Shown here: piece after piece, positions 3,431 to 24,167 of the stretch
How positions within the stretch are numbered: the stretch's first letter is position 1
Layout: each line of letters begins with the position of its first letter
Source of the DNA: a virus
IMG/VR virus record: IMGVR_UViG_3300048672_000098
Span: 1 to 24,167 of that record
Strand: one strand, 5' to 3'
Length of the DNA stretch: 24,167 nt
The notes under the pieces: model-generated
What the model saw: the letters and a program-made list of their open reading frames with translations, nothing else
Databases searched by the model: none
What the model was told of the DNA's origin: nothing
Position numbers and translations under genes: made by a program

Positions 3431-5488
3431 ATGATTGATAAAACCGCACCGGAAGAGCTTGATCTTATACGTAGACAGTGGAGTCGATATACTTCAGCTT
3501 TACGGAGAGGTCATCAAGCGTATCAAAAACGCGCTAAGGTTTGTGAGAACTTCTACATAGGCTGTGGATTACAGTGGACTGAAGAAGAAAAGCAGGCATT
3601 AGAGGAAAAAGGTAAGCCTTGGTTAGAGGAGAATATTATCTTCTCTACTGTTAATACTGTTATTGGCTATCAAACACAGAGTCGTATGGATATAGCTTAT
3701 AAGCCTAGAGAAGATGACGATCAAGAAATATCTGATACCCTCTCTAAGATTGCTATGTTCCTTACAGATCAGAATAAGTTTCCTTGGAAGGAAAGTCAGG
3801 TATTCTCTGACGGCCTTATTCAGCAAAGAGGCTATTTTAATATAAAGATGGATTTTAATGATAATGTCTACGGTGATATTAAGATAGATGTATTAGACCC
3901 TCTTGATGTTATACCTGATCCAGACTCTAAGAGCTATGACCCTGATGATTGGGCGGATGTAATAGTTCTATCTTGGATGACTTTAGATGATATTAGAGAA
4001 GTATATGGTGAGAAGGTTTATCGAAAGATACAGGCTTGTTATGAGAACTATGGTCAGCCTGATTTTGGAAGAGGCTCTTTTGAGGAGGACAGAAATAAGT
4101 TTGGCACCAATAATAGCTATTCCCCTTTCTTCACAGACTCTACAGATGTACCACACGTTAGATTAATCGATAGGCAGTATTGGAAGGTTCAGAATAGAGA
4201 CTTCTACTTCAATGCACAATCTGGTGACACATACGCAGTTCCAGAAGGCACTAAGCCAGCAGAAATGAAGAAGTATGCTAGAGTTAATGGTCTTGAGCTT
4301 ATTAAAAAGGTTGTTAAGCGTATTAGGTGGACTGTATCTACACATGATTCTATTCTTTTTGATGAGTGGAGTCCATACGATCATTTCACTGTTGTACCAT
4401 ATTTCCCATACTTTAGAAGAGGTGTTACTCTAGGCTTAGTAGATAACTTGATTAAGACACAGGAGCGTATAAATAAAGTATCTTCTCAAATACTGCACTC
4501 TGTTAATAGTACATCTAACTCTGGCTGGTTAATTGAAGAAAACTCTTTAGCCAATATGGATATAGAGGATTTAGAGGATGTAGGGGCTCAGACAGGTCTT
4601 GTACTAGAGTATAAATCTGGTAGAGATAAACCTGAAAAGATTGAACCTAACCAAGTACCTCAAGGTCTAAGTGAGTTATATAGGAGTGGTATTGAGCTGA
4701 TTAGGCTCATATCAGGCGTAAGCGAGACTTTCCAAGGTGGAAAAGGCCCTGAGGTATCTGGGGTAGCCATTCAATCTAGAAGCCATCAGGCAGCAATACA
4801 GTTAGCTGCACCTATAGATAATTTGTTTAGAACAAGAAATATGATTGCTGAAAGAATGTTAAGGCTTATACAGACATTCCTAACACAAGAGCGCACATAC
4901 ATGATTGCTGGTGTTAATCCAGAGGGTGTTAGTAAGCTTACTCCTGTTACTATTAATAAGCAGGATGCAAGCTCTAGTACATTAATCAATGATGTAACTC
5001 TTGGTAAGTATGATGTAGTAGTAGCTGATGTTCCTACTCAGATCACCTTCCAGAATGCACAGTTCTCTCAAGCTATAGAGATGAAGAAGTATGGTGTTAA
5101 TATACCAGATGATGAGATGATCTTAATGAGCACTCTCTCTAGAAAGCATGAGATAGCTAAGAAGATAAGCCCTGAGATGACTGATGAACAAAGAGCCTTA
5201 CAGCAACGTAGTACTGAAGCAGAAGTCTCTAAGCTTGAACAAGATGCTGAAGAGTTGAAGGCTAAGGCTAAAGAGAAAGATGCTGAGACACTAGCTAAGG
5301 TGGCTACAGTAGCTCAGATGATTTCTGATAATCCATCACTATCTATAATGATAGATAGTTTACTAGCTACACTCTCTGAAGAGAAGGCTAACCTTAATAA
5401 ACCTCAACCAGTTCAGTCAGCCCCTGAGCAATTAGGACAAGCTGAAATGCCTATAGGCTCTGAACAACTAGGACAAACTTTAGAATAA
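3431..5488 (+). CDS. Portal protein (P22-like)
   Basis: Dodecameric portal at the unique capsid vertex; the channel for DNA entry and exit and the docking site for terminase and head-tail adaptor. The start has AGGAAAATAA directly upstream, eight bases after terL. The 685-residue length and the N-terminal layout (FYIGCGLQWTEEE at 41-53, then ENIIFSTVNTVIGYQ at 67-81) resemble P22-like portals. DPLDVIPDPDSKSYDPDDW (156-174) and the central region with SGVSETFQGG also fit. The C-terminal ~70 residues are charged and helical (QRSTEAEVSKLEQDAEELKA), consistent with a crown or barrel-like coiled coil, and end in a Pro/Gln-rich tail. Position between terL and scaffold supports the call. Confidence 0.93.
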   Translation: MIDKTAPEELDLIRRQWSRYTSALRRGHQAYQKRAKVCENFYIGCGLQWTEEEKQALEEKGKPWLEENIIFSTVNTVIGYQTQSRMDIAYKPREDDDQEISDTLSKIAMFLTDQNKFPWKESQVFSDGLIQQRGYFNIKMDFNDNVYGDIKIDVLDPLDVIPDPDSKSYDPDDWADVIVLSWMTLDDIREVYGEKVYRKIQACYENYGQPDFGRGSFEEDRNKFGTNNSYSPFFTDSTDVPHVRLIDRQYWKVQNRDFYFNAQSGDTYAVPEGTKPAEMKKYARVNGLELIKKVVKRIRWTVSTHDSILFDEWSPYDHFTVVPYFPYFRRGVTLGLVDNLIKTQERINKVSSQILHSVNSTSNSGWLIEENSLANMDIEDLEDVGAQTGLVLEYKSGRDKPEKIEPNQVPQGLSELYRSGIELIRLISGVSETFQGGKGPEVSGVAIQSRSHQAAIQLAAPIDNLFRTRNMIAERMLRLIQTFLTQERTYMIAGVNPEGVSKLTPVTINKQDASSSTLINDVTLGKYDVVVADVPTQITFQNAQFSQAIEMKKYGVNIPDDEMILMSTLSRKHEIAKKISPEMTDEQRALQQRSTEAEVSKLEQDAEELKAKAKEKDAETLAKVATVAQMISDNPSLSIMIDSLLATLSEEKANLNKPQPVQSAPEQLGQAEMPIGSEQLGQTLE

Positions 5489-5491
5489 TTT

Positions 5492-6355
5492 ATGAGTGAA
5501 ATTGACAACGATTTAACAGAAGAAGAGTTAGCAGCCCTTAGAGGAGATACTTTTGAGGGTGAAGAGGATGAGGCTGAAGAAGAAGAAGTGTCTGAGGATG
5601 CTGAATCAGAAGAAGAGCCTGAGGATACTGAAGTTGAAGAAGACCCTAGGATTAGTAGACTATTAGAGCAGATGGAGGCTAGCAAAGAGCGTAATGCCTG
5701 GCTAGAAGAGCAATTAGGTAAACTGATAGCTAAAGAAACTTCAGTCAAATCTATAGAACCTGATAAACCTGCATATGACTTTGAAGCTAAAGAAGAAGAG
5801 TATGTTAACCTTATTATTGAAGGTGAGATTGCTAAGGCTTCTAAACTACGCTCTCAGATTGATGCTGCAAAGACTAGTGAGTTACTGGCCCTTATACGAG
5901 GGGAGGCTGAATTAACATCTAAGAAATCTATAGCTGAGGCTCAGATCCTTATTGAACAAGATAAGTTCTCTAAGGCTGTTGAAGTTATAGAGTCTCAACA
6001 TCCTTTCTTTAATCCAGATCATAAACTATATAATGAAGAGGCTGTAGATACTGCAAATAGTCTAATGAATGCCTTTATTGCTAAAGGAGAGTCTAGGACT
6101 GCTGCTCTTAAGAAGGCTGTATCACGTATACTCCCGTTATATGAGCCACAGATTACTAAGTCAGCTTTAGGGTCTGAAAGGAAATCTACGGCTGGTAAGA
6201 TTGCTGCTGATGCTGCTAATAGACAGCCACCTAAAACATCAGGAGTTAAAGGTGAATCAGGCTCTCTAAAGACTAAGCCTTTATCAGCTTACACGGATAA
6301 GGAGTTTATGGCGCTAACCCCAGCACAACTTAGAGAGCTTAGAGGAGATATGTAA
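5492..6355 (+). CDS. Probable capsid scaffolding protein, 287 aa
   Basis: Starts three bases after the portal stop, probably by translational coupling because no strong ribosome binding site is present. The first ~50 residues are extremely acidic (runs such as GEEDEAEEEE and EPEDTEVEEDP). They are followed by a predicted coiled coil at about 53-85 (RISRLLEQMEASKERNAWL). A helical middle and a Lys/Ser-rich, disordered-looking region (~230-270) come before a short basic C-terminus with LTPAQLRELRGDM. Acidic N-terminus, coiled coil and location between portal and major capsid gene are typical of scaffold proteins that shape the procapsid and are then removed. Scaffolds are poorly conserved, so this is inferred from composition and context. 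Confidence 0.75.
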   Translation: MSEIDNDLTEEELAALRGDTFEGEEDEAEEEEVSEDAESEEEPEDTEVEEDPRISRLLEQMEASKERNAWLEEQLGKLIAKETSVKSIEPDKPAYDFEAKEEEYVNLIIEGEIAKASKLRSQIDAAKTSELLALIRGEAELTSKKSIAEAQILIEQDKFSKAVEVIESQHPFFNPDHKLYNEEAVDTANSLMNAFIAKGESRTAALKKAVSRILPLYEPQITKSALGSERKSTAGKIAADAANRQPPKTSGVKGESGSLKTKPLSAYTDKEFMALTPAQLRELRGDM

Positions 6356-6667: not shown

Positions 6668-6829
6668 ATGGCATTAACAAACTTTTCTGCTTTAACACCA
6701 GAACAAAAAACAGTATGGAGCCGCCAGCTCTGGATGCAAGCTCGTGATTTATCTTTCATGACTAGATTCACTGGCGGTACAGATGCAGTAGTCCAACGTA
6801 TCACTGATTTAACAAAAACTGAAAAGGGT
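6668..6829 (+). CDS. Major capsid protein, exon 1 of 3 (codons 1-54)
   Basis: First exon of an N4-gp56/DUF4043-like major capsid protein, the main shell subunit. The full gene is the join 6668-6829, 7648-7862, 8401-9124, encoding 366 residues. The ATG has AGGA 12 bases upstream. The exon encodes the N-terminal arm (MALTNFSALTPEQKTVWSRQ) through FTGGTDAVVQRITDLTKTEKG, a characteristic family stretch. It ends at the GGT codon (6827-6829). The last four bases GGGU can pair with GCUC (6837-6840) to form P1 with the expected U-G at the splice site. Reading on into the intron meets TAG at 6848-6850, so unspliced RNA would give only 60 residues. The boundary rests on frame, P1 and alignment of the intron 3' ends. 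Confidence 0.85.
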
Positions 6830-6873
6830 CAAGTTGGCTCGGCTATATAGTAATATATAGTGCATACCTCTCT

Positions 6874-6982
6874 AATTGCTGGGATCTCTTGAAGGTGGTT
6901 GAACTACAACGTAAGATTAAAATCTAAACGTGAATGTTTAAAAATCAATTATTATAAGACAATCAGCAGCTAAGCCTCTAAG
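6874..6982 (+). repeat. Intron core repeat, copy 1 (109 nt)
   Basis: Identical to 7908-8016 except for four bases (GG/AA at 6897-6898, T/C and C/T near 6971-6976). It covers the P4-P5-P4'-P6 part of the intron core, including about 70 bases with no difference. Offset between copies is 1034 nt. Confidence 0.95.
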
Positions 6983-7067
6983 GATATTTATATCTATGAG
7001 GAAAGTTCAGAGTCTAGTCGAAAGACGTAGTTATTTAGTTTAATAACGAAATGGGAGGAGGCCTTAA

Positions 7068-7589
7068 ATGGTTAAGATTTGCAAGATTTGTGGAGAAATG
7101 GATCAAAGTTTACTGTGTATCTCACATGGCTATGTATGTAATATGTGCAAAGCATGTAGAAATGAGTGTAAAAGGCAGTGGAACAAAGATAACAGTGAGG
7201 CCCAGAGAATATATAAGAAGAATTATAGAGAGGCTAATAAAGACTCTATAAGAGCCTATTCAAAGGCCTATAGATCTCTCCACAGAGATAAAAGTATAAG
7301 AAGAATGAGGGATTGGAGAGCTTTAAATCCTGGTAAGGTCAATTACTACTCTGCTAAGAGAAGGGCCTTCATAAACAGGGTTAAGGTTGACTGCGAGTTT
7401 AATGATTTTATTATTCAAGAGATGTATAGCTTGTCTCGATATAGGTCTGAGATTACAGGTATAAAGTGGGTTGTGGATCACATAGTACCTTTAAACTCTA
7501 AACTTGTATGTGGCCTTCACACATACCATAACTTAAGAGTTATACCACATTCTATAAATGCTAGTAAATCTAATAAGTTTGAGGTCTAA
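7068..7589 (+). CDS. HNH homing endonuclease, intron 1-encoded, 173 aa
   Basis: Intron-encoded nuclease expected to cut intronless capsid genes and promote intron homing. The start has a very strong ribosome binding site (GGGAGGAGG) eight bases upstream. N-terminal CxxC pairs (C5/C8, C27/C30, with an extra C24) suggest a zinc-binding finger. Residues 45-100 form a basic helical linker (RIYKKNYREANKDS and similar). The C-terminal HNH domain has VVDHIVPL (135-142; D137, H138), CGLHTYHNLRVIP (148-160; H151, N155) and NASKSNK (164-170; N164, K167). These are the complete set of expected active-site and structural residues, so the protein looks functional. The stop codon lies four bases before the 3' strand of P7, so ribosomes would reach the ribozyme core. 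Confidence 0.93.
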   Translation: MVKICKICGEMDQSLLCISHGYVCNMCKACRNECKRQWNKDNSEAQRIYKKNYREANKDSIRAYSKAYRSLHRDKSIRRMRDWRALNPGKVNYYSAKRRAFINRVKVDCEFNDFIIQEMYSLSRYRSEITGIKWVVDHIVPLNSKLVCGLHTYHNLRVIPHSINASKSNKFEV

Positions 7590-7647
7590 GATATAGACCA
7601 TTCTTATATGTGAATATAAGAGGTACAGGATGTACCGTAATATAAAG

Positions 7648-7862
7648 GAACGTGCAATTATGCACCTGTTAGCCGATTTGGTTGATGATGGTACAGTGGG
7701 TGATGATGTCCGTGAGGGTCAGGAAGAAGCTTTAGTTAGCTTCAACGAAACAATCAATATCGATATGATTGCTCATCAAGTTCGTGAAAAAGGTAAGATG
7801 GCAGCTCAAAAAACTGTTATCGCATTCCGTGAAAACGCTAAAGAAAGATTGGCATTTTGGCT
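7648..7862 (+). CDS. Major capsid protein, exon 2 of 3 (codons 55-126, last codon split)
   Basis: Encodes ERAIMHLLADLVDDGTVGDD through REKGKMAAQKTVIAFRE to the split Leu codon in AFWL, the most recognisable section of N4-gp56-like capsid proteins. The ATG at 7630 in the same frame lies in the intron and is not a real start. The exon ends at CT (7861-7862). P1 of intron 2 forms between GGCU (7859-7862) and GGCC (7873-7876), with U7862 opposite G7873. Without splicing, translation ends at TAA 7888-7890. The 215-nt length is not a multiple of three, so skipping this exon would shift the frame. Confidence 0.88.
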
Positions 7863-7907
7863 ATGTAATGATGGCCCCTTAGTAGCTTAACTAAGGAGAA
7901 TACCCTT

Positions 7908-8016
7908 AATTGCTGGGATCTCTTGAAGGTAATTGAACTACAACGTAAGATTAAAATCTAAACGTGAATGTTTAAAAATCAATTATTATAAGACAATCAG
8001 CAGCCAAGCTTCTAAG
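7908..8016 (+). repeat. Intron core repeat, copy 2 (109 nt)
   Basis: Second copy of the group I core at 6874-6982, with four differences in 109 bases. Two of these fall in or beside P6, where one forms part of a compensatory pair change. Confidence 0.95.
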
Positions 8017-8099
8017 TCTATCCTTATAGGTATGAAGAAGGTTCAGAGACTAGGGAGGAATCCCGTAGTTATTTAGTTTAATAACGAAAGAGGGTAATA

Positions 8100-8279
8100 A
8101 TGCACATTTGTAAAACTTGTGGTGAATCAGATATATCTAAATTTAGAATCAGAGCAACCTCTAACAGACCGTATGGTAGCTGTAGATCTTGTAACAATGA
8201 TAAATATAGAGATAAGCGTACTGAGTACTACAGGTCTGATAAAGGTAAGGCAATTAAAGCCGCTTCTGACAGGAAGTAG
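8100..8279 (+). CDS. Zinc-finger remnant of an HNH homing endonuclease, 59 aa
   Basis: A short reading frame inside intron 2 with ATG preceded by GAGGG. It encodes MHICKTCGESDISKFR, then CRSCNNDKYRDK and a short basic tail. The CxxC (C4/C7) and second CxxC (C28/C31) match the N-terminal zinc-binding part of the intron 1 endonuclease (ICKICGEMDQSLL, then CKACRN). The helical linker and the whole HNH catalytic domain are missing. It ends at TAG 8277-8279. The likely reading is a deletion derivative of a homing endonuclease left in an otherwise intact ribozyme. A retained role as a small RNA- or DNA-binding protein is possible. It is in the same strand and relative position as the intron 1 gene. 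Confidence 0.65.
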   Translation: MHICKTCGESDISKFRIRATSNRPYGSCRSCNNDKYRDKRTEYYRSDKGKAIKAASDRK

Positions 8280-8400
8280 GTATTAATCTTCAAGTAATAC
8301 CAGCCATAGAAAACCTTTTGAAATCAAACCGAGTGTTATAAAATATAGTCCAAACTTTATAGAGATATAAAGAGAGATATGGATGTCTCGTAATATAATG

Positions 8401-9124
8401 ATCTAACAGAATTGACCAACTTATGATTCAAACGCTTAGTGGTATCAGCTTTGCTTTGAATACTGATGGTTCTGCCCGTGCTTCAGGCGCATTTAACTCA
8501 TTAGCATTTGCTGCTGATGTATCTGCTCCTACAGCTAAGCGCCATCGTCGTTGGGACGCTACAAATTCTGTATTAGTAGCCGGTAATACTGCTGCTGTTA
8601 CAGCAACTGATAAACTTACATATAAAGCCTTAGTAGAAGCTAACGTTTACGCTAAGACCCACTATGTTAAACCTTTGATGGCAGGCGGTAAAGAGTATTA
8701 CTGCTTATTTGTACGTCCTGAAGCCTTAGCTCAGTTAAAAGCTGACCCAGAGTATCAACGTGCATTAATAACTGGTATGGATCGTGGTAAAGAGAATCCT
8801 TTCTTCACCGGCGCTACCATCACTGTTGATGGGTTGATAATCCATGAACACAGATTAATCTTCAACACCCGTGGTGCTGCTTCTGGTAGCAAATGGGGTG
8901 CTACAGGAACTGTAGAAGGTAGCCGTGCATTATTATGTGGTGCTCAAGCTCTAGGCTTTGCAGATTTAGGTGCTCCTGAATGGTCTGAAAAACTATTTGA
9001 ATATGACAGCTCAGCTGGTATATCAGTAGATAAGATGATTGGTATGGTTAAGCCTAAGTTCTATAGTCAGTACGACAAATCTATCGAAGATTTTGGTGTT
9101 ATTGCTATTGACCACGCTATCTAA
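8401..9124 (+). CDS. Major capsid protein, exon 3 of 3 (end of codon 126 to codon 366)
   Basis: Begins with A8401, which completes the split Leu codon, then SNRIDQLMIQTLSGISF, the continuation expected in this capsid family. The ATG at 8423 is an internal Met (residue 134), not a start. The remaining ~230 residues include AKRHRRWDATN, HYVKPLMAGGKEYYCLFVRP, QALITGMDRGKENPFFTGA-like text and the C-terminal YDSSAGISVDKMIGMVKPKF segment. These are typical of N4-gp56/DUF4043-like major capsid proteins. The frame closes with TAA at 9122-9124. Codon usage is cleaner and more C/G-ending than in neighbouring genes, as expected for a very highly expressed protein. Confidence 0.9.
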
Positions 9125-14086: not shown

Positions 14087-15952
14087 ATGGCACAACTCTT
14101 TGCAAATAATGCTAAAAGTACTCTTAGTACTTCTATTTCTGATATAGATACAATAATAACTCTACAGACTGGGGGCGGATCTAAATTCCCTAGTAATCTA
14201 TCTAATACTAACTATATACTAGTTACCTTATCTTCCATAGATGGCCTCTCTCAAGAGGTAATAAAAGTTACTGGAATTTCTGGTGATATATTTACATCTG
14301 TAGTTAGAGGTTATGAGTTAGGGCCACCTAAGACTTTTATTGCAGGTGATAATGTATATTTATCTATAACGTCATCAACATTAGATCTTCTTCCTACTAC
14401 AAACTTAAATGGGACTTCCTTATATCTTTCAAATAAATCAGACAGCATAGGGTCATATAGTACCTTATTCGGTATAGGGTCTTCCTGTAATGGCTACTCT
14501 TTTACTACAGTATTTGGTAAAGGTACCAGCTCTATAGGCCACTATAACTGTATAATTGGAAGCTCTATAAATACTCTAGATTATAGTACAGACTCTTGTG
14601 TAACTATAGGATCATTCTCATCCTTAGGAGCCGCTATAGGCTGTGTAGCTTTAGGGGATTTCTCATTTATAAATGGGGCTAACTCTATAGCTATAGGATC
14701 AGGCTCATCAGCAGATACTTTATCTGTAGCTATAGGCCCAAGCTCCTACTCTTACCTCTCTTCTGTAGCTATTGGTAAGAACTCTTATGCTGAGAACTCG
14801 TCAGTAACATTTGGTGTATTATCATCATGTGTTGGATATAATAATATTAGTATTGGTTGTCTTAATAAATCCTCTAGCTTATTCAGTAATACTATTACTT
14901 CAGGATCACAGCTAGCCTCTACTGTAATAGGAAGTGGTAATGTTTGTATTGCCTCATCTAATAAAGGCTCTAATAGTATAATTATAGGCTCATACTCTGT
15001 ACCTACAGAGATAGCTGCTAATAACTCTGTTATTATAAGTCATGGTTCATCCCTTATTACTAGTGCATCATATACATCTTTATCCTCTACATACCCAAAT
15101 AACTATATAGAAAATAATACTTATACAGGCAATGGTAGTATTACAGATTCTATATTAATTAACTCAACAGCCTTCTCTTCCTCTTTTCCTGGAAGTAATA
15201 CTATAGCCATAGGTGCTGGATCATCATCTTCAACAACTACTGGAGTTATTATTGGATCGGCTCTTGGGGATATATCTTTCCCATCTATAACTCATGTCGG
15301 AAGTACACAGGGTTATAACTTAGGTCAAAGGTCATCAACTATTGGATCATTAGCAGGTTATCATGGTATTTACACATCTAATGAAGTCACTATTAAAGAT
15401 GTAACTGCAATAAGAGGCTACGCAACAACAGCATCTGGTAATACTATACTTCCTAATATAAATACAGGTTGTTCTGTTATAGGTAGGGGTTCTTTTTGTA
15501 AACTTCCAGCAACAAAAATAATCAATGGTACATCACAAATACCCGTAACCCCTTCAGCCCAATCTACTAAGATATTCTCTAAATGCACTGGATATGAGAC
15601 TATTTTTTCTAAAGCTGCTATATCTAGTACAATATTTAATGTAATAAACTCTAATCTATTTGCTGCTGAGGCTGCTACATCATATGTTAATTATGGGTTT
15701 ATATGTACTAGGGTAGGTTTTGTTATACTTACAGGTACAGTTAGTACTCCTCCTACAATAACAATAGCAGGTAATCTTGCCTCTAAAGTATTTACACCAT
15801 CTAACACTGTGACTAATAGTATATCGGTATCTCCAGAATTACCTGTACTACTCTCTAATGGCACTGGAAATATAACATTCATTAATACAACAGCATCTAC
15901 AGGTACATTTACTGCTAGATTACTTGTTTATGGATACTTCATTGGTATATAA
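14087..15952 (+). CDS. Tail fibre protein 1 with YadA-like repeats, 621 aa
   Basis: Residues 1-~105 form a common phage fibre N-terminal module. It runs from MAQLFANNAKSTLSTSISD through EVIKVTGISGDIFTSVVRGYE to the FIAGDNVYLSIT strand, and probably attaches to the virion. Residues ~120-400 contain many short 'S-x-x-I-G' repeats (SIAIGSGSSAD, SVAIGPSSYS, SVAIGKNSYAENS). These are the pattern of the left-handed beta-roll head of bacterial trimeric autotransporter adhesins such as YadA. The last ~150 residues form a separate beta-rich domain (TIFNVINSNLF, then TASTGTFTARLLVYGYFIGI), shared with the next gene. I infer a trimeric receptor-binding fibre. The spacing of the repeats is looser here than in the downstream paralogue. 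Confidence 0.75.
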   Translation: MAQLFANNAKSTLSTSISDIDTIITLQTGGGSKFPSNLSNTNYILVTLSSIDGLSQEVIKVTGISGDIFTSVVRGYELGPPKTFIAGDNVYLSITSSTLDLLPTTNLNGTSLYLSNKSDSIGSYSTLFGIGSSCNGYSFTTVFGKGTSSIGHYNCIIGSSINTLDYSTDSCVTIGSFSSLGAAIGCVALGDFSFINGANSIAIGSGSSADTLSVAIGPSSYSYLSSVAIGKNSYAENSSVTFGVLSSCVGYNNISIGCLNKSSSLFSNTITSGSQLASTVIGSGNVCIASSNKGSNSIIIGSYSVPTEIAANNSVIISHGSSLITSASYTSLSSTYPNNYIENNTYTGNGSITDSILINSTAFSSSFPGSNTIAIGAGSSSSTTTGVIIGSALGDISFPSITHVGSTQGYNLGQRSSTIGSLAGYHGIYTSNEVTIKDVTAIRGYATTASGNTILPNINTGCSVIGRGSFCKLPATKIINGTSQIPVTPSAQSTKIFSKCTGYETIFSKAAISSTIFNVINSNLFAAEAATSYVNYGFICTRVGFVILTGTVSTPPTITIAGNLASKVFTPSNTVTNSISVSPELPVLLSNGTGNITFINTTASTGTFTARLLVYGYFIGI

Positions 15953-15974: not shown

Positions 15975-17636
15975 ATGGCACAGCTATTTTCTAATAATGC
16001 AAAAACAACACTATCTAGTAATATAAATAGTTCTCAAACATCTATCCCTGTAGTAAATGCTTCAGTATTTAATGTAGGGTTAACCTCTCCAGATTTTGAG
16101 GTTATTACTCTAGAAGATACCTCAGGTAATAGAGAAATTATTAAGGTTGATGGTATAGTATCTAATACACTTACTGTTACTAGAGGCTATGAATCTACTA
16201 CTCCTTTATCATTTTCATCATCTGATACTACTGTTGAATCTAGGCTAACAGCCGGTAGTCTCTCTCTTCTACCAAAATCTAATCTTAATAACTCTTTATC
16301 TATAGGTTATAATACTACTACTGGAAGTACATCCTGTATGGCTATCGGCAATAGTGCTATATGTCAAGGGAGTAACTCTATGGCCTTGGGTCATCTATCT
16401 ACAACAGCATCTAGTTCTGGATCTATAGCTATTGGTTATGGTTCAACATCTATAGGCGGGTCATCTGTTGCTATAGGTTATGGGGCTAACACTAATACAG
16501 CTACATCTTCTGTAGTAATCGGTACATCCTGCTCTACAAATGCTAATGATTCTATAGTTATAGGAAAAACAATAGCTGCTAGCGCTACTTCATCTATTAA
16601 TATAGGCTCTTGGGCTACATCATCTGTAGCAGGTATTAATACAACCTCTATAGGCTATAGCACATTTAATAATAATACCACTAGTGTTGGGATTGGTGCA
16701 AACTGCCTTACTCAAGGTGTAGGTTCAGTCTCTATAGGTTATGCCTCTAGTTCAACAGGTGGCGTAGCTATAGGCTCTGGAGCTATAGCAACTACTAGTT
16801 CTTCTGTATCTATTGGTACATCTGCAAACTCTGTAACTAGTGGGGCCGGTATCTCAATAGGGAACTTATCTAAGTGTGCATTAAGTTCTATATCTATAGG
16901 TACATCATCAACCTCATCAGGAGCTAATACTATAGCTATAGGTTCTAACTCTACTGCTACTGGAGCAGGTTCTCTTGCTATAGGTACTAGCGCAAATACA
17001 GGGGCTACAACAACATCTACCTCTATAGGTAACTCATCCTCTGTACTTGCTTCAAGGTCTACTGCTTTTGGGTATGCCTCAACTGTTGCAGCAGCAGCTA
17101 CTGATTCTATAGCTGTAGGGTATAACGCCTCTTGCACAGCTACAGCGATTGGAAGTATTGCTTTTGGTTCAGGTGCAATAAATACATTACCAAGTACTAC
17201 AGTTATTCTTGGTACTAGCTTTCTACCTGTAACACAAGCTGCTAATCATCTAAAGGTTTTTAGTCAAATAACAGGTAATGTTACTATAATTGGTACACCT
17301 GTAATCTCTTCTACAATATTCAATGTTATAAATAGTAATCTTATCCCTATAGAAGATATGACTGAGTTTAGTACTTCTTTATTTGTTGTAGATGCTATAT
17401 CATTTTCAATATCCACAGGGACGGTTACAACACCTCCAACAATAACCTTAACAGGTAACACAGGGTCTGTAGTATTTACCCCTACTAATACAGTTACTAA
17501 TTCTATATCAAGATCTACAACAAATCCTACAGTAGTATCAAGTGGGTCTGGTAACTTGACATTAGTAAATACAACAGCATCTACAGGTACATTTACTGGT
17601 AGGGTCTTTATTCATGGGTACTTTATAGGTGCTTAA
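15975..17636 (+). CDS. Tail fibre protein 2 with YadA-like repeats, 553 aa
   Basis: Paralogue of the preceding fibre, with the same N-terminal module (MAQLFSNNAKTTLSSNINSS, then NREIIKVDGIVSNTLTVTRGYE). About twenty 'S-x-x-I-G' repeats at ~110-415 follow (SIAIGYGSTS, SVAIGYGANT, TIAIGSNSTATGAGS, SLAIGTSANTG). A matching C-terminal domain contains ISSTIFNVINSNL and TASTGTFTGRVFIHGYFIGA. Repeat units are mostly 12-16 residues and closer to the bacterial YadA consensus than those of fibre 1. A three-codon frame (ATG at 15964, Met-Val-Ile-stop) precedes the gene, and its TAA overlaps this ATG. Inferred: trimeric adhesin-like receptor-binding fibre, perhaps an alternative or heteromeric partner of fibre 1. 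Confidence 0.75.
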   Translation: MAQLFSNNAKTTLSSNINSSQTSIPVVNASVFNVGLTSPDFEVITLEDTSGNREIIKVDGIVSNTLTVTRGYESTTPLSFSSSDTTVESRLTAGSLSLLPKSNLNNSLSIGYNTTTGSTSCMAIGNSAICQGSNSMALGHLSTTASSSGSIAIGYGSTSIGGSSVAIGYGANTNTATSSVVIGTSCSTNANDSIVIGKTIAASATSSINIGSWATSSVAGINTTSIGYSTFNNNTTSVGIGANCLTQGVGSVSIGYASSSTGGVAIGSGAIATTSSSVSIGTSANSVTSGAGISIGNLSKCALSSISIGTSSTSSGANTIAIGSNSTATGAGSLAIGTSANTGATTTSTSIGNSSSVLASRSTAFGYASTVAAAATDSIAVGYNASCTATAIGSIAFGSGAINTLPSTTVILGTSFLPVTQAANHLKVFSQITGNVTIIGTPVISSTIFNVINSNLIPIEDMTEFSTSLFVVDAISFSISTGTVTTPPTITLTGNTGSVVFTPTNTVTNSISRSTTNPTVVSSGSGNLTLVNTTASTGTFTGRVFIHGYFIGA

Positions 17637-17638
17637 AA

Positions 17639-19441
17639 ATGTTACTTAATACTAGTAAAATATCATCAGTACCTTTAGATGGCTTATTTATACCTGCATC
17701 TGGTGGTGGCTCACAATCAGATACTATATCAGAAAATATATCTTATATATCTAGCCCTATATTAGGTAGTATAGATTTTGAAAGTATAAGTGAAGCTTTC
17801 TATATAGTAACTAGCTCTATAGCTGATTATAGATTCAGCCAAGGTATTACTGAGCCTTTCAGCATATCATCATCATCTATAGCGGCTAATCTTCAAATCT
17901 TCAGCATATTAGATACACTTAATATTAATGTTTCTGAGTCTATATCTAAAAATGCCCTCAAGATATTATCAGAATCTTTTAATGTATCTAAGAATGAGTT
18001 GGTACATGTAAACTCTAGTATAACTGACTATATTAATATACTAGACTCTTATACTACTAAACAGATATTCTCACTTGTATCATCAATAGTTAGTAGCACC
18101 TCTACTGTTGTAGTTGGTAAGTTCTATTCTGCACTTATAACATCATTATCATTAAGTGTTGATGCTCTAGCTAGCTATAACTTTAACCAGGCAATAATAG
18201 AGTTATTCTCTACTATAGATCTTCCTAGCAAGGTTCAGCAAGAGTTTATATATAATAGCATATCAACTTTAGAATCCTACTTATTATCTATAACAGTACC
18301 AGCTAACTCTTCAGTATCTATTAGTACAGTAAACAGTATTAATAGTAATTTGAAGTATGAAAATAAAGAAACTATATCTACTGTGTCTTTAGTTAATACT
18401 AATGCCTTTGGTGCTATAACAGAGTTATTAGTCCTTATAACTGATATGATAGTTAAAGATTATAATAGTTTAGAAGACACTATTACGATGTCATCTATTA
18501 TAAGTAGTAAGAGTTATTTGTATGAATCCCTTCTTAATATTATAAAACTGAATAGCTTGTATAAAGTCTTAGATATAGCTATTATATCAGATGGTCTAGA
18601 TGTATCTACTAATATATTATCTTTAGTTAAATCTATAGGGATTATTATAGAGTCTATAGATACTAGTTCAGATGCCTTTATAGCAAGTAATACATTCCTA
18701 GTTCTCTTAGATACTTTAACTTTAATAGATCAATCAGTATATGCTTTATTTGGAAGTATTTCAGAGACTATAGAGTATAGTCTATTAACAAGCTCTATAA
18801 GAAAGAGTATTGAGAAGGTAATAGAGGCTTTATTTATAAGTCAATCCTCCGCTCAAAACTCTGTTATATTGGTTCCTTTATTAGATAATCTATCTATAAA
18901 TAGTGACTATTCTTTATCCTCTATAATACAGGCACTGCTATCTGATGAACTGTTACTAGTCTTACCTAATAGCTTTGGTAGTTCTAACTACTTTACGTAT
19001 GCCTTTAGTCCTGAGACAAGCTCTATAAGCACCTATGATAATTATAATTTTGATGGCGCTTGTGTCTTTAAGGATAAGTATCTATTCTTCAATAAAACTG
19101 GAATATATGAATATGGTGGTAAGTTTGATAATGGACTACCTATACAATCTGAAATTAGCACATCAGCCTTAATGTATGCTACCTCTAATCTTAAGTCTGT
19201 ACCTAGTGTTTACCTTGGGGTTGTTAATTCTGATTTTGTCATATTAAAAGTTAGAACTGATGGAAGAGGGGAGTTTACCTATAAACTTAATAAGCACACA
19301 AATAATCTTCATACACAAAAGATAAATGTAGGCAAAGGTGTTATAGGTCGATACTTTCAGTTTGATTTAATTACCAGTGCTGAAGATTTTGATCTAAACA
19401 GTATAGAATTTCTACCTTTAGTACTTAAAAGGAAAATATAA
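17639..19441 (+). CDS. Conserved phage virion protein with repeat N-terminus, 600 aa
   Basis: Starts two bases after the fibre 2 stop, so probably coupled. Residues ~25-440 are low-complexity Ser/Ile/Leu units of about 30-40 residues (for example SITDYINILDSYTTKQIFSL) in an alternating strand-like style, similar to the gene entering the window at base 1. The C-terminal ~150 residues form a domain I recognise from many phages. Its signposts are YDNYNFDGACVFKDKYLFF, GIYEYGGKFDNGLPIQSEIS, KVRTDGRGEFTYKL, GVIGRYFQFDL and a final FLPLVLKRKI. In other phages this protein sits next to the long helical protein found next here. The biochemical role is unknown; it is treated as a virion/tail structural protein. 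Confidence 0.65.
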   Translation: MLLNTSKISSVPLDGLFIPASGGGSQSDTISENISYISSPILGSIDFESISEAFYIVTSSIADYRFSQGITEPFSISSSSIAANLQIFSILDTLNINVSESISKNALKILSESFNVSKNELVHVNSSITDYINILDSYTTKQIFSLVSSIVSSTSTVVVGKFYSALITSLSLSVDALASYNFNQAIIELFSTIDLPSKVQQEFIYNSISTLESYLLSITVPANSSVSISTVNSINSNLKYENKETISTVSLVNTNAFGAITELLVLITDMIVKDYNSLEDTITMSSIISSKSYLYESLLNIIKLNSLYKVLDIAIISDGLDVSTNILSLVKSIGIIIESIDTSSDAFIASNTFLVLLDTLTLIDQSVYALFGSISETIEYSLLTSSIRKSIEKVIEALFISQSSAQNSVILVPLLDNLSINSDYSLSSIIQALLSDELLLVLPNSFGSSNYFTYAFSPETSSISTYDNYNFDGACVFKDKYLFFNKTGIYEYGGKFDNGLPIQSEISTSALMYATSNLKSVPSVYLGVVNSDFVILKVRTDGRGEFTYKLNKHTNNLHTQKINVGKGVIGRYFQFDLITSAEDFDLNSIEFLPLVLKRKI

Positions 19442-19443
19442 TA

Positions 19444-21303
19444 ATGCCACTTAACAATCTGGACATTAATGTAAACTCGAATGGTGTAGATGTTTGGCTT
19501 ACTGATTTAAAGAATATAGCAGATTCAGCTATAAATAAAGCCTCATCATCAGCCTCATCACTTCAAACTAACTCATTTCAAACATACCCTGTATCCAATT
19601 CTCATCTATTCCCAAATAGTGAAAGAGTTCAGATAGATAGTGTTTCAGATCCTATAGAGCCTACTTTTGATCTTCCACAGAGACCCGTGCCTAGGAAGAT
19701 CACTCTTAATCTATCTAGTGTTACACCACCTCACTTAGACTCAGTTCTTGTTGATCCACCCACACTAAACATACCTAAAGCTCCAGGTGTATCTTTAGGT
19801 GATGCCCCTGTAAGAAATTTTAATGTTAATACTAATCTATCGGTACCTGAGTTTGAAGGTTATAATCTTCCTAAGGTGCCTACGTTCGAATCTCTTAAGA
19901 TACCTGTACTAGATACACCAAACATTACTCCTTTCCTACAGGCTATACCCTCTTTTAACTCTTCAGTAATACCTACATCTATAGTATCCTTCAACCCTAC
20001 AAGATATACTTCAGGGTTGGTAACATCTGTAAGGGATTTATTATTAAGAAGATTATCTGGTGGTACAGGTCTATCAGCAACAGTAGAGGCTGCTATATGG
20101 GATAGGGATCGTGATAGAGAGTTAAGAGCTTCTAGGTTATCTGAAGAGACTTTACTTAACTCTAGAGCTGGTTCAGGTTTTAGTAGACCTACTGGATCTA
20201 TGTTCTCTGTACTAGATAATATGGTACAGGATGCCCAATCTAAGATTATAGAGCTTAGTAGAGAGATAATGATTAAACAGGCTGATCTAGAACAGAAGAA
20301 CCTGGACTCTTCTATCTCTCAAACTATGGCTCTTGAAGATTTATTACTTAAAGAGTTTTTAGAGTTTACTAAAACCTCATTTGATCTAGCTAAATATAAG
20401 AAGGATACAGAGGTAGAAATTTTTAAATCCTCCTTATCAGTATTCTCTTCAGAGATAGAGATGTATAAAGCCTATGCAATATCATATGAAACTATGATTA
20501 AGGCAGAGCTTAATAAGCTTGATATTTATAAAGCCGAATTAGATGGTGCTAGATTAGTTAATGAAGTTAAGGCTCAAGAGATAAGTGTATTCTCTGCTGG
20601 TATAGAAGGTATTAAGGCTAGTGTAGATTTATATAGGTCTCAGATACAGGCTATAGAGGAAACCTTAAAGATAGAAGGTTTAAAGTTTGATCTATTTAAA
20701 TCAGATATAGAGGCATATAACTCTACTTTAGAATCTCATAAACTTAAATATAATATATATGCCGAGCAGATTAAAGGTGAGCTATCTAAAACAGAGATCT
20801 ATGATTCTCAAGTTAAAGCTTATGCTTCTAGAGTTCAGGCATACTCTTCAGAGGCTGATGTTTCTATGAAGGTTGCTGAACTTAACAGTAATCTTGAAGG
20901 TCTAAAACTGAAGCAATATGAGGCTGATACAGATCTTTATATAAAACAGCTTCAGTCAGATCAATTAAGATATGAGTCAGCTGTTAATGTATACAAAGGT
21001 CAAGCAGACGTCTTCTCAGCTAAACTAGGTCTTAATAGAGCTAATGCTGAAATACAGCTTAAGAATATTGAAAATACTATAGAGCAGAATAAAGCTCAAG
21101 CTAATATCTCGGTAGAGAATGCCAGACTTAACTTAGCATCCTTATCTAATAGTGCTAATGCTCTTATAGAGGGTAAGAAGGCTGCTGGCGGGATCTACCA
21201 GGCTATAGGCTCATCTGCCTTATCAGCAATTAACGTAAGTAATCACTTCTCTAGTAGCGTTGGCTTGACAGCTAGTGAAGATCATAACTACTCAGGGGTA
21301 TAA
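19444..21303 (+). CDS. Long helical virion protein, 619 aa
   Basis: AGGA lies about ten bases before the ATG. Residues ~70-180 are proline-rich with repeated short strands (LPQRPVPRK, VTPPHLD, NIPKAPGVSLGD). WDRDRDRELRASRL at 219-232 is a signature found in related phage proteins. Residues ~260-590 are almost entirely helical with repeats of the type E-x-Y-K-A/E-x-x-x-x (EIEMYKAYAISYE, LDIYKAELDGARL, KTEIYDSQVKAYASRVQAY), implying a very long coiled coil or helical rod. The C-terminal ~40 residues are Gly/Ser/Ala-rich. This family pairs with the preceding protein. I infer a rod-like virion component, possibly ejected or part of a tail spike stalk; a tape-measure role is unlikely given the podovirus-like gene set. 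Confidence 0.62.
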   Translation: MPLNNLDINVNSNGVDVWLTDLKNIADSAINKASSSASSLQTNSFQTYPVSNSHLFPNSERVQIDSVSDPIEPTFDLPQRPVPRKITLNLSSVTPPHLDSVLVDPPTLNIPKAPGVSLGDAPVRNFNVNTNLSVPEFEGYNLPKVPTFESLKIPVLDTPNITPFLQAIPSFNSSVIPTSIVSFNPTRYTSGLVTSVRDLLLRRLSGGTGLSATVEAAIWDRDRDRELRASRLSEETLLNSRAGSGFSRPTGSMFSVLDNMVQDAQSKIIELSREIMIKQADLEQKNLDSSISQTMALEDLLLKEFLEFTKTSFDLAKYKKDTEVEIFKSSLSVFSSEIEMYKAYAISYETMIKAELNKLDIYKAELDGARLVNEVKAQEISVFSAGIEGIKASVDLYRSQIQAIEETLKIEGLKFDLFKSDIEAYNSTLESHKLKYNIYAEQIKGELSKTEIYDSQVKAYASRVQAYSSEADVSMKVAELNSNLEGLKLKQYEADTDLYIKQLQSDQLRYESAVNVYKGQADVFSAKLGLNRANAEIQLKNIENTIEQNKAQANISVENARLNLASLSNSANALIEGKKAAGGIYQAIGSSALSAINVSNHFSSSVGLTASEDHNYSGV

Positions 21304-21306
21304 TGA

Positions 21307-22338
21307 ATGGCAGATCCTAATAAGAAAGATCCTAAGAAGGCTCAACTTGGTGCTGGTGGTAATGGTGCTCAAGCAACTACAGTAGATGATAAGTCTGGTA
21401 CTGGTGCCCAGTCTACCCTTCAAAGAGGTATAGGCGCAGTTGGTAAAGTATTAAATAATATTAACCCTTTCAACAATGTAGCATCTAATGTAGTTAAAAC
21501 TTTAACAGATGGTAGTATCGTTAATGGGGCTAAGGCTTTAGGTAGTCAAGTAGCTACAGCTTTAACAACACCCCCTACTAGTCAGAATGATTTAAATGCT
21601 AGTAGAGTAGCTACTACCCCAGTAGCACCATCAAAGGTTACTACCCCAGTAGGAGTTCAAAGTACTAAAGTAGATAGCCTACCTGATGGTGGCTTCAGAA
21701 CTAATACATATACCAATGGTGCTAATAGTGTTACTTTCGGTAATAGAACTTTATCAGATACACAAGTATCTAATCTAGATAAAACATTAGAGTACAATCG
21801 TAGACCTGAGGTAATAGAAGGTTTTGCTAAGAATGCTGCCCTCTCTCAGGCTAGATACGATGATTACTTTAAGAAGAAAGAGGTAGGGGATCTTACAGCT
21901 AGGTTAGATGGTGAACTTAGTAAAAGATTCCCTAATCCTACAGTTGTTAATAACCTTCAAGAGCGTCTTAAGTTAGGGAGTGAGGAGAAGGCTACTGGCC
22001 CTTCCTTCGCTGATGTAAATAAAGCAGATGAGGCCAAGGCTAGGTTACAGCTAGATATTAATAAAGGTAGTGATGCTAAGAATAATAAATTTATGGCATC
22101 TCTAACTAAAGAAGATCCATCAGGACGTAAGAGAAGTCTTAACAATATTTTAGCTGAAGGTGAGGGGTTAGGTGCTGATTATAATGTAGACGTTGTATCT
22201 CAATTCTCTGATGCGCCACAAGAAACTTTAGCTAGACTAGGTTCTGCTAAGACCTCTGAAGAGTATTTACAGACCTTAAAAGAGTTAGGCGTATCACCAC
22301 CTTTAGCACTAAAGGCAACCCAAAAGAAATTTAAATAG
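21307..22338 (+). CDS. Probable internal virion (ejection) protein, 343 aa
   Basis: The ATG at 21307 is in the reading frame; another ATG at 21303 overlapping the previous stop is out of frame. The protein has a basic, Gly/Ala/Gln-rich N-terminus (KKDPKKAQLGAGGNGAQATT). It continues with a helical stretch IGAVGKVLNNINPFNN, a disordered Pro/Thr segment (~95-125) and a helical charged C-terminal half (LTARLDGELSKRF, KADEAKARLQLDINK). There is no catalytic motif. Low-complexity, Ala/Gly-rich helical proteins behind the tail genes of podoviruses are commonly ejection proteins that leave the capsid before DNA. That role is inferred from composition and position. Confidence 0.5.
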   Translation: MADPNKKDPKKAQLGAGGNGAQATTVDDKSGTGAQSTLQRGIGAVGKVLNNINPFNNVASNVVKTLTDGSIVNGAKALGSQVATALTTPPTSQNDLNASRVATTPVAPSKVTTPVGVQSTKVDSLPDGGFRTNTYTNGANSVTFGNRTLSDTQVSNLDKTLEYNRRPEVIEGFAKNAALSQARYDDYFKKKEVGDLTARLDGELSKRFPNPTVVNNLQERLKLGSEEKATGPSFADVNKADEAKARLQLDINKGSDAKNNKFMASLTKEDPSGRKRSLNNILAEGEGLGADYNVDVVSQFSDAPQETLARLGSAKTSEEYLQTLKELGVSPPLALKATQKKFK

Positions 22339-22352
22339 TAGGTAACTAACAA

Positions 22353-24167
22353 ATGGCAAAATTAGGACAAGGTGGTAATGAAGATTCAATTTCATCTTAT
22401 ATTGGACAAGGTAATAGCATTGATAAATATCTAGGAAAATCTACATCTTCTGAGCCTTCTCCTAATGCTTCTAAGATCCTAGAAGATTATAAAAAAGTCT
22501 TTAGTACTTCCTCAGAAGTAGTTAAGCCAGAGAAGAGTAGACTAGATACTGTTAAAGACAATGCTATGGATCTTGGCAAGGCATTGGCTACAGGGACTAT
22601 AGGTACAGTAGGAAATACAGCCAATGAATTAGCTGCTTATGCTGGAAACAGTATTAATCAGTTATCAGGTGGTAGAACTAGATTAGGTTTACCAACACCT
22701 TCAGAGGCTGCTGACAATGCTCTAAGTATCTCTAAGTTCACTAAAGATGTTGTAGGTAACTACTCTAATGATTATCAAAGCAACCCATTACTTACAGACA
22801 CTGGTGCTATCAACACTGATTACTCTCTTAAGAATGCTGCTGTAGGTTTTATGCAATCTGTACCAGGTATAGCTGCAACCTTAGGTATTACTAAAGGGGC
22901 TTCTCTTGCTGGTAATGTATTAACTAAAGGTGCTTTGGCCGAGAGTACATTAGCACCTAAGCTTATAGCTGGTGCATCTGAGGGTACAATAGCTGCTGCT
23001 CAAAGCGCTGCTGATACACGTACCCAGGTCTTAGAAACACCTATTGAATCTTTAAGAGGAACACCTAAGTTTGAATCAGAGTTAGCACTACAAGATAAAA
23101 CCTTACCTTTACATGAAAGAGAAAAGGCAGCTCAGCTAGAGTTGTCTAATCAGGCAGCTACTTCTGTATTCACAGACACCTTCCAAAGTACAGCTGCTAT
23201 AGGTATAGCAATGCCTGGTTTTGAGGGTGATGTAGCTGCAAGAGCTTTAGGACAGGGTGGGCTTGCTAGTAGGGCATTGTCTAGAGCTGCTCAAGGTGCT
23301 GAACACTTTAAGAAGGGCACTGTTGAGGCTTTCCAAGAACTTGGTCAAACTGGTAGAGAGGCATACATTCAGAACCTTGCAGAGAAAGAATATGTCAATC
23401 CTAATAAGAATGCCTATGATGGTGTTCTAAGTAAATCTTTAGAGGGTGCTATATTAGGCTTCGGTTCTGGTGTTGGTATGAGTATGATAGCTCATCCTAC
23501 TACATTGAGAAATATTGAGACTGGTAAAAGACCAGATGCTAAAAACCCTATTAATCCTACAACTAACGCACCAATACAAAATAGCACTTTAAAGAAAGCT
23601 TTCTCTTCCTACTCACAACAATACATATCGAGTACTCGTGATGTAAATTCAGAAGAGTATAAATCCTCATATCAGGTAGCTAAAGATACAATCAACTCTA
23701 TTATAAGTAAAGACGGTGCTACACCTCTAGATATTAAAGAGGGTCAAGAGCTTCTTAAAAGTATTGAGGTAAGTCATAGTGCTGCTAAGGCTGCTCAGGC
23801 TGCTGCTAGAAGAGCTGCTGGAATTGAAGAGCCAGTGGATAGTGTTGCTGATAGTAGTACAGTCCAATCAGAGGCTACTAAGCCTTCATCAACTACAGAT
23901 TCATTTAAAGCCCCTAAATCCTTCACTTCAATAAAGAAGATCTATAACGACCTAAGGGCTCAGAGTATTGATGATAATAACCCTATAGAGGATGTATCTG
24001 ATGTTACCACTAGTGATGGATTAAAAGCCTTCACAGTATTAGCCAAGACTGCTACATCTCAAGAGGATCTAATAGATAAATTCCAGAAGGCTCACAAGGC
24101 TGTTAGAGACGAGAAAGCTGCTAAGGCTAATGGTACTAAGGCTAAGCCTAAAACTAATACTCCTGTA
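22353..24167 (+). CDS. Large internal virion (ejection) protein, 5' part only
   Basis: Begins at ATG 22353 with AGGTAA nine bases upstream, and stays open for all 605 codons to the window end, so the C-terminus is missing. The visible part is Ala/Gly/Ser-rich and largely helical. Two amphipathic or hydrophobic glycine-rich stretches (residues ~161-190, AAVGFMQSVPGIAATLGITK; ~363-382, EGAILGFGSGVGMSMIAH) could associate with membranes. A linker rich in Lys, Ser and Thr occurs near 510-540. No lytic transglycosylase motif is seen so far, but such a domain could follow beyond the edge. By size, composition and context it is a candidate for the major ejected DNA-channel protein of a podovirus. 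Confidence 0.6.
   Translation, partial: MAKLGQGGNEDSISSYIGQGNSIDKYLGKSTSSEPSPNASKILEDYKKVFSTSSEVVKPEKSRLDTVKDNAMDLGKALATGTIGTVGNTANELAAYAGNSINQLSGGRTRLGLPTPSEAADNALSISKFTKDVVGNYSNDYQSNPLLTDTGAINTDYSLKNAAVGFMQSVPGIAATLGITKGASLAGNVLTKGALAESTLAPKLIAGASEGTIAAAQSAADTRTQVLETPIESLRGTPKFESELALQDKTLPLHEREKAAQLELSNQAATSVFTDTFQSTAAIGIAMPGFEGDVAARALGQGGLASRALSRAAQGAEHFKKGTVEAFQELGQTGREAYIQNLAEKEYVNPNKNAYDGVLSKSLEGAILGFGSGVGMSMIAHPTTLRNIETGKRPDAKNPINPTTNAPIQNSTLKKAFSSYSQQYISSTRDVNSEEYKSSYQVAKDTINSIISKDGATPLDIKEGQELLKSIEVSHSAAKAAQAAARRAAGIEEPVDSVADSSTVQSEATKPSSTTDSFKAPKSFTSIKKIYNDLRAQSIDDNNPIEDVSDVTTSDGLKAFTVLAKTATSQEDLIDKFQKAHKAVRDEKAAKANGTKAKPKTNTPV

Follow-up and report, generated by a model that had tools for sequence, protein, structure and literature searches.

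The window analysed here is the whole of IMG/VR record IMGVR_UViG_3300048672_000098, an incomplete viral genome of 24,167 bp, in which the gene at 6668-9124 lies in three pieces in different phases. Removal of 6830-7647 (818 nt) and 7863-8400 (538 nt) yields a 1101-nt frame of 366 codons plus the stop. Its exons, all on the plus strand, are exon 1 (6668-6829, codons 1-54), exon 2 (7648-7862, 215 nt), and exon 3 (8401-9124, the end of the frame); all three are defined by the spliced frame and by the junctions seen in relatives, and exon 3 in addition by its match to the TIGR04387 model. Farther along the window, 14087-15952 and 15975-17636 encode two adjacent paralogues whose ends are alike and whose serine/glycine-rich repeats resemble the heads of trimeric adhesins; they are likely tail fibre or spike proteins.

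The capsid gene and its junctions

Judged from its predicted sequence, the 366-residue product is a major capsid protein of the N4-gp56/PF13252 family. It scores 77.6 bits against TIGR04387 (capsid_maj_N4, an equivalog model with a cut-off of 60) and 141.9 bits against PF13252 (E 3e-41; cut-off 23), and it matches PHROG 334, “major head protein”, with an E value of 5.5e-81. The residues brought together at the two junctions, KTEKG followed by E and W-L-S/A-N-R (WLANR/WLSNR), are contiguous in uninterrupted IMG/VR relatives. When the nearby T/G splice pairs were enumerated, 6829/7648 and 7862/8401 retained both E55 and WLxNR and gave a P1 helix of 6 bp with a U.G pair. The pair 6834/7653 also keeps the frame and the length, but it replaces the conserved E55 with Q, and the folded P1 fits 6829. 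The splice sites and the N4-gp56-like identity proposed in a preliminary description of this DNA are thus upheld.

It is hardly conceivable that the functional capsid protein is instead a 233-residue product read from the ATG at 8423, with the upstream pieces as separate genes, as in the annotation of MW202615.1. Such an ATG is indeed present, and GenBank gives a 285-aa capsid protein in MW202615.1. On the other hand, roughly 120 distinct relatives each encode the protein in a single full-length frame, and exon 3 alone scores 44.8 bits against TIGR04387, under the cut-off of 60 that the spliced protein exceeds.

Two group I introns and their pairing

The preliminary description had assigned both interruptions to the group I introns and had proposed a covariance search with Rfam model RF00028, whose gathering score is 50 bits. 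Intron 2 (7863-8400) is matched at 7853-8372 with 52.4 bits; intron 1 (6830-7647) is matched at 6821-7030 with 39.3 bits (E 6e-7), under the gathering score. For intron 1, the model misplaces P3: the true 3' strands of P3 and P7 lie beyond the site it chose, that of P7 even beyond the open reading frame (ORF) that follows the 3' strand of P3. The search matched both segments, and only intron 2 passed the gathering score. Sub-threshold snoRNA matches elsewhere in the Rfam results for the window were dismissed as chance.

In both introns, the last nucleotide is G (7647 and 8400), the 3' end reads CGTAATATAA-A/T-G, and P1, P3, P4, P6, and P7 could all be identified. P1, found by folding, has 6 bp in each case with a U.G pair at the splice point: GGGU/CA with UGGCUC in intron 1 (6826-6840) and GGCU/AU with AUGGCC in intron 2 (7859-7876), the slash marking the splice site. 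The strands of P3 and P7 were assigned by hand with the help of the alignment and covariation described below. P3 of intron 1 pairs CCUCUC (6867-6872) with GGGAGG (7053-7058), and its P7 pairs GUCUA (7012-7016) with UAGAC (7594-7598). The counterparts in intron 2 are UACCCU (7901-7906) with AGGGUA (8091-8096) and GACUA (8048-8052) with UAGUC (8346-8350). All these elements are on the plus strand. Two apparent hairpins, recognised by sequence, lie between the 5' strand of P7 and the 3' strand of P3 in both introns, where group I introns of subgroup IA have the extra stems P7.1/P7.2.

The pairing was followed through 13 phage introns, those of the window together with introns from MW202615.1, the loci L029 and L037, jaberico, Pollock, EF1, ctcc615, and phiKZ; the candidate relative 10AMN was left out of the alignment because the 3' strand of its P3 could not be placed. 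The intron in the RNA polymerase gene region of phiKZ (NC_004629.1, L197) has the same type of ribozyme core in sequence and pairing, but it belongs to another gene and another host and served here only as an aligned relative. The pairs of P3, P6, and P7 are retained in 13/13 introns with many double changes, and 11 pairs have changes on both sides. Standard pairs make up 99.3% of the pair cells versus 84.8% in shuffles, a percentage biased towards structure because the alignment was built by hand from the positions of the elements. The covariation score is 0.481 versus 0.152 in shuffles, and chance can be excluded because none of the 500 shuffles scored as high; in slid controls, 33-50% of the cells were paired. 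As the slid and shuffled controls show, the covariation signal is real despite the hand alignment. The group I nature of both segments is accordingly borne out by the RF00028 matches, P1 with its U.G pair, the terminal G, and the covarying core helices, which include the P3/P7 pseudoknot.

Could the gene nevertheless be broken, with the insertions as dead remnants in a decaying or mis-assembled phage contig and no capsid protein made? The degenerate endonuclease of intron 2 (see below), as well as the unusual P7 pair and the sub-threshold Rfam score of intron 1, would fit such a reading. However, all three exons retain the invariant residues of the family and the frame, the remaining block of structural genes is intact, and the ribozyme helices are maintained by double changes, including those by which P3, P6, and P7 differ between introns 1 and 2. 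We regard a broken gene as very improbable.

The most convincing explanation, which we hold with high confidence on the basis of these comparisons, is that a podovirus-like phage carries in its capsid gene two IA-like group I introns that arrived as mobile elements and are both spliced for capsid production. Each intron would fold into a ribozyme, cut at the U.G pair of P1, rely on the G at its end for the 3' site, and join the exons. The 366-residue protein would be made only once both introns are removed, and capsid output would depend on two splicing events. Three observations weigh against this explanation: the score of intron 1 under the gathering cut-off, its inverted P7 pair, which could reduce activity even though pairing is kept, and an endonuclease ORF for which Pfam gives nothing at its default threshold.

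Sister ribozymes and their reading frames

The P4-P5 blocks of the two introns (6873-6970 and 7907-8004, both on the plus strand) are identical at 96/98 positions, or 98%. Identity is complete in P7.2 (26/26), falls to 69% across P6-P7-P7.1, and is 52% on the P1-P3 side, approximately the level of shuffled sequences; each window intron is only 73-76% identical to the two outside cores compared, L035b and L037b. At the foot of P7, both window introns also have the same G and A (UUCAGAG, where most others have UUCAACG), and in both, this G is matched by a C after the 3' strand. By these sequence criteria, introns 1 and 2 are sisters whose recognition sequences are fitted to two different sites: their P1 guides fit the two sites, and the P4-P5 core would have been recently shared or gene-converted. 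The patchiness of this identity suggests that an older duplication was followed by recent gene conversion. It should be mentioned that the cores at 6873-6970 and 7907-8004 form a direct repeat of 98 bp, 1,034 bp apart, and that recombination between the copies would remove exon 2, which may be a price of keeping both introns.

The second pair of P7 is U-A in intron 1 and A-U in the other 12 introns compared; in other words, the pair is inverted in a compensated manner and the pairing is retained. We take its position to be that of the A265-U310 pair of the Tetrahymena and Azoarcus structures, adjoining the guanosine-binding pair, and an inverted pair in this guanosine-binding part of P7 could lower the activity of intron 1. 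A search of IMG/VR with the core pattern GCAGCNAAG...GTTCANNG[A/T]CTA, which covers introns with exactly this flanking core, found the common form in at least 120 stretches, with the fitting UAGUC 3' strand in 84/87 matches (80 loci listed). The inverted form was found in 32 stretches, only two of which have UAGAC within 1.5 kb downstream, and no 5' strand of P4 was present in the four inverted-form matches inspected, including one of the two with UAGAC. The inversion was therefore rejected as a common variant: with 30 of the 32 stretches lacking a matching 3' strand and the four inspected lacking P4, the matches look like chance.

A further proposal, added to the main explanation, is that the compensated inversion of this nearly invariant pair makes two near-identical ribozymes non-interchangeable, a natural orthogonalisation selected to insulate them against exon skipping. 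By computed energy, P7 cross-pairing between the introns is weakened by the inversion from -5.2 to -1.2 and -0.7 kcal/mol (the -1.2 is for intron 1's 5' half paired with the 3' half of intron 2), and the inversion was not found in the other 12 introns or in any genuine core that matched the IMG/VR pattern. Exon skipping is real elsewhere, having been observed in terL of SIOphi (PMC11878797), and here a product joining exon 1 to exon 3 would stop at once (GGT ATC TAA). As a general insulator, the inversion was rejected, since neighbouring intron pairs elsewhere, including both introns of MW202615.1, have an identical P7. For the window introns themselves, cross-pairing through P3 stays strong in the direction that matters (-8.9), and the case is a single one. 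Both the non-interchangeability and its selection seem to us improbable.

Intron 1 contains an intact ORF of 173 aa (7068-7589, plus strand) that resembles homing endonucleases of the EndoVII/HNH type. It matches PHROG 1035 (E 2e-12), is 36% identical to the ORF in the first intron of MW202615.1 and 35% identical to that of L029, and displays the motif DHIVPLN...GLHTYHNL...NASKSN, of the DH...N...SN type. At the default threshold, it has no match in Pfam, HNH included, and its search for relatives in IMG/VR gave one weak match only. It is thus a putative endonuclease, whose cutting activity is suggested by the PHROG match and the motif; it could home intron 1 into intron-free alleles. The 3' strand of P3 in intron 1, GGGAGG, overlaps the likely Shine-Dalgarno sequence of this ORF, whose ATG lies at 7068 (region 7053-7068). 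Because the same GGGAGG serves as P3 strand and as likely Shine-Dalgarno sequence, translation of the ORF and folding of the ribozyme should compete or exclude each other. A comparable layout is seen in L029.

Intron 2 retains two pieces of such an endonuclease on the plus strand. The first, at 8100-8279 (59 aa), is an N-terminal remnant with the zinc-finger part and is 37.5% identical to the ORF of intron 1 over 32 aa (E 2e-4). The second, at 8285-8332 in another frame, is a C-terminal remnant with 56-60% identity over 15-16 aa to the ORFs of intron 1 and L029 (E 0.011 and 9e-4, respectively). From these similarities, the ORF of intron 2 is an endonuclease whose middle has been deleted, and intron 2 itself is probably a passive passenger.

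Insertion sites among relatives and known systems

A search of 188 loci found the capsid gene uninterrupted except in the window, L029, MW202615.1, and four contig-end fragments; single uninterrupted capsid frames were recorded at 187 loci, including six copies in bacterial genomes, and comprised 120 distinct sequences. Sampling of this type favours uncut genes close to the query, and the frequency of introns is only a rough guide. MW202615.1 (podovirus ctwe8250, our L035) has two introns in the same capsid gene (4971-5767 and 5814-6155), inserted after nt 170 (codon 57) and after codon 72, and L029 has one (607-1410) near codon 78; removal of these introns gives full-length capsid proteins. 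The window introns lie at codons 54 and 126. In a tree of 82 capsid sequences, the three genes with introns belong to a single clade of 18 members (support 1.0), each surrounded by uninterrupted relatives, and the branch that places the window within this clade is weakly supported (0.44). Because five intron sites in the same capsid gene are distributed over three phages, the sequences point to separate gains. Both window introns would have entered the capsid gene as mobile elements, and the 5' part of this gene is probably a repeated target of such insertions within a single clade of phages.

The GenBank capsid protein of MW202615.1 (UOF79330.1, 4801-7043) is annotated without its first two exons, at 285 aa; neither intron was recognised, and the ORF within the intron is labelled a PacI restriction endonuclease. 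L054, which among the sampled sequences stands nearest to MW202615.1 in the capsid tree, has weak RF00028 matches at 19,393-22,490 of its 66,908-bp record, away from its uninterrupted capsid gene. One further intron with the exact core pattern was found in IMG/VR; it interrupts an ATPase-like gene in a different phage (L037, 3300026484_000014). This record has three RF00028 matches within about 6.5 kb, and the one in the ATPase-like gene holds the 21-nt core common to the window introns.

Several known systems resemble parts of this arrangement. The phage Twort is said to have one gene with three introns, according to a 1999 paper. In the polymerase and terL genes of the Bastillevirinae, several group I introns, mostly IA-like, likewise occupy one phage gene (PMC11878797), but in Twort and these phages the genes are not capsid genes, and exon skipping is observed there. 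A case in a capsid gene is that of LittleE, whose major capsid gene is interrupted by an intron of about 820 nt, putatively of group I, that contains an endonuclease ORF and has part of its core in common with an intron elsewhere; splicing of the capsid intron was proven by RT-PCR and N-terminal sequencing (PMC3706429). It differs in having one intron, in belonging to the cluster J mycobacteriophages, and in the LAGLIDADG-like ORF, which lies on the opposite strand (PMC3706429). A capsid-gene intron of Tuc2009 is cited in the same paper. In MW202615.1, the capsid protein is of the same family as that of the window (about 70% identity), and its gene has two group I introns, the first with an endonuclease; the sites, at nt 170/codon 57 and codon 72, are not those of the window (54 and 126), and the introns are unrecognised in the record.

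The preliminary description had called two ribozymes in one capsid gene unusual, which holds in a relative sense only: MW202615.1 also has two, and capsid introns are published (PMC3706429). Among the open-access papers searched, we came across no description of a single capsid gene with two introns. Introns in phage capsid genes have been described before, as have phage genes with several introns, and the window adds another case, in which two introns sit in a capsid gene, a type of phage gene that usually ranks among the most strongly expressed. Because introns were missed, a capsid gene of this clade has been recorded as truncated, a warning to annotators. Because related phages have been invaded at five sites, this capsid gene offers a natural system for studying how mobile introns choose, tolerate, and re-target an essential gene.
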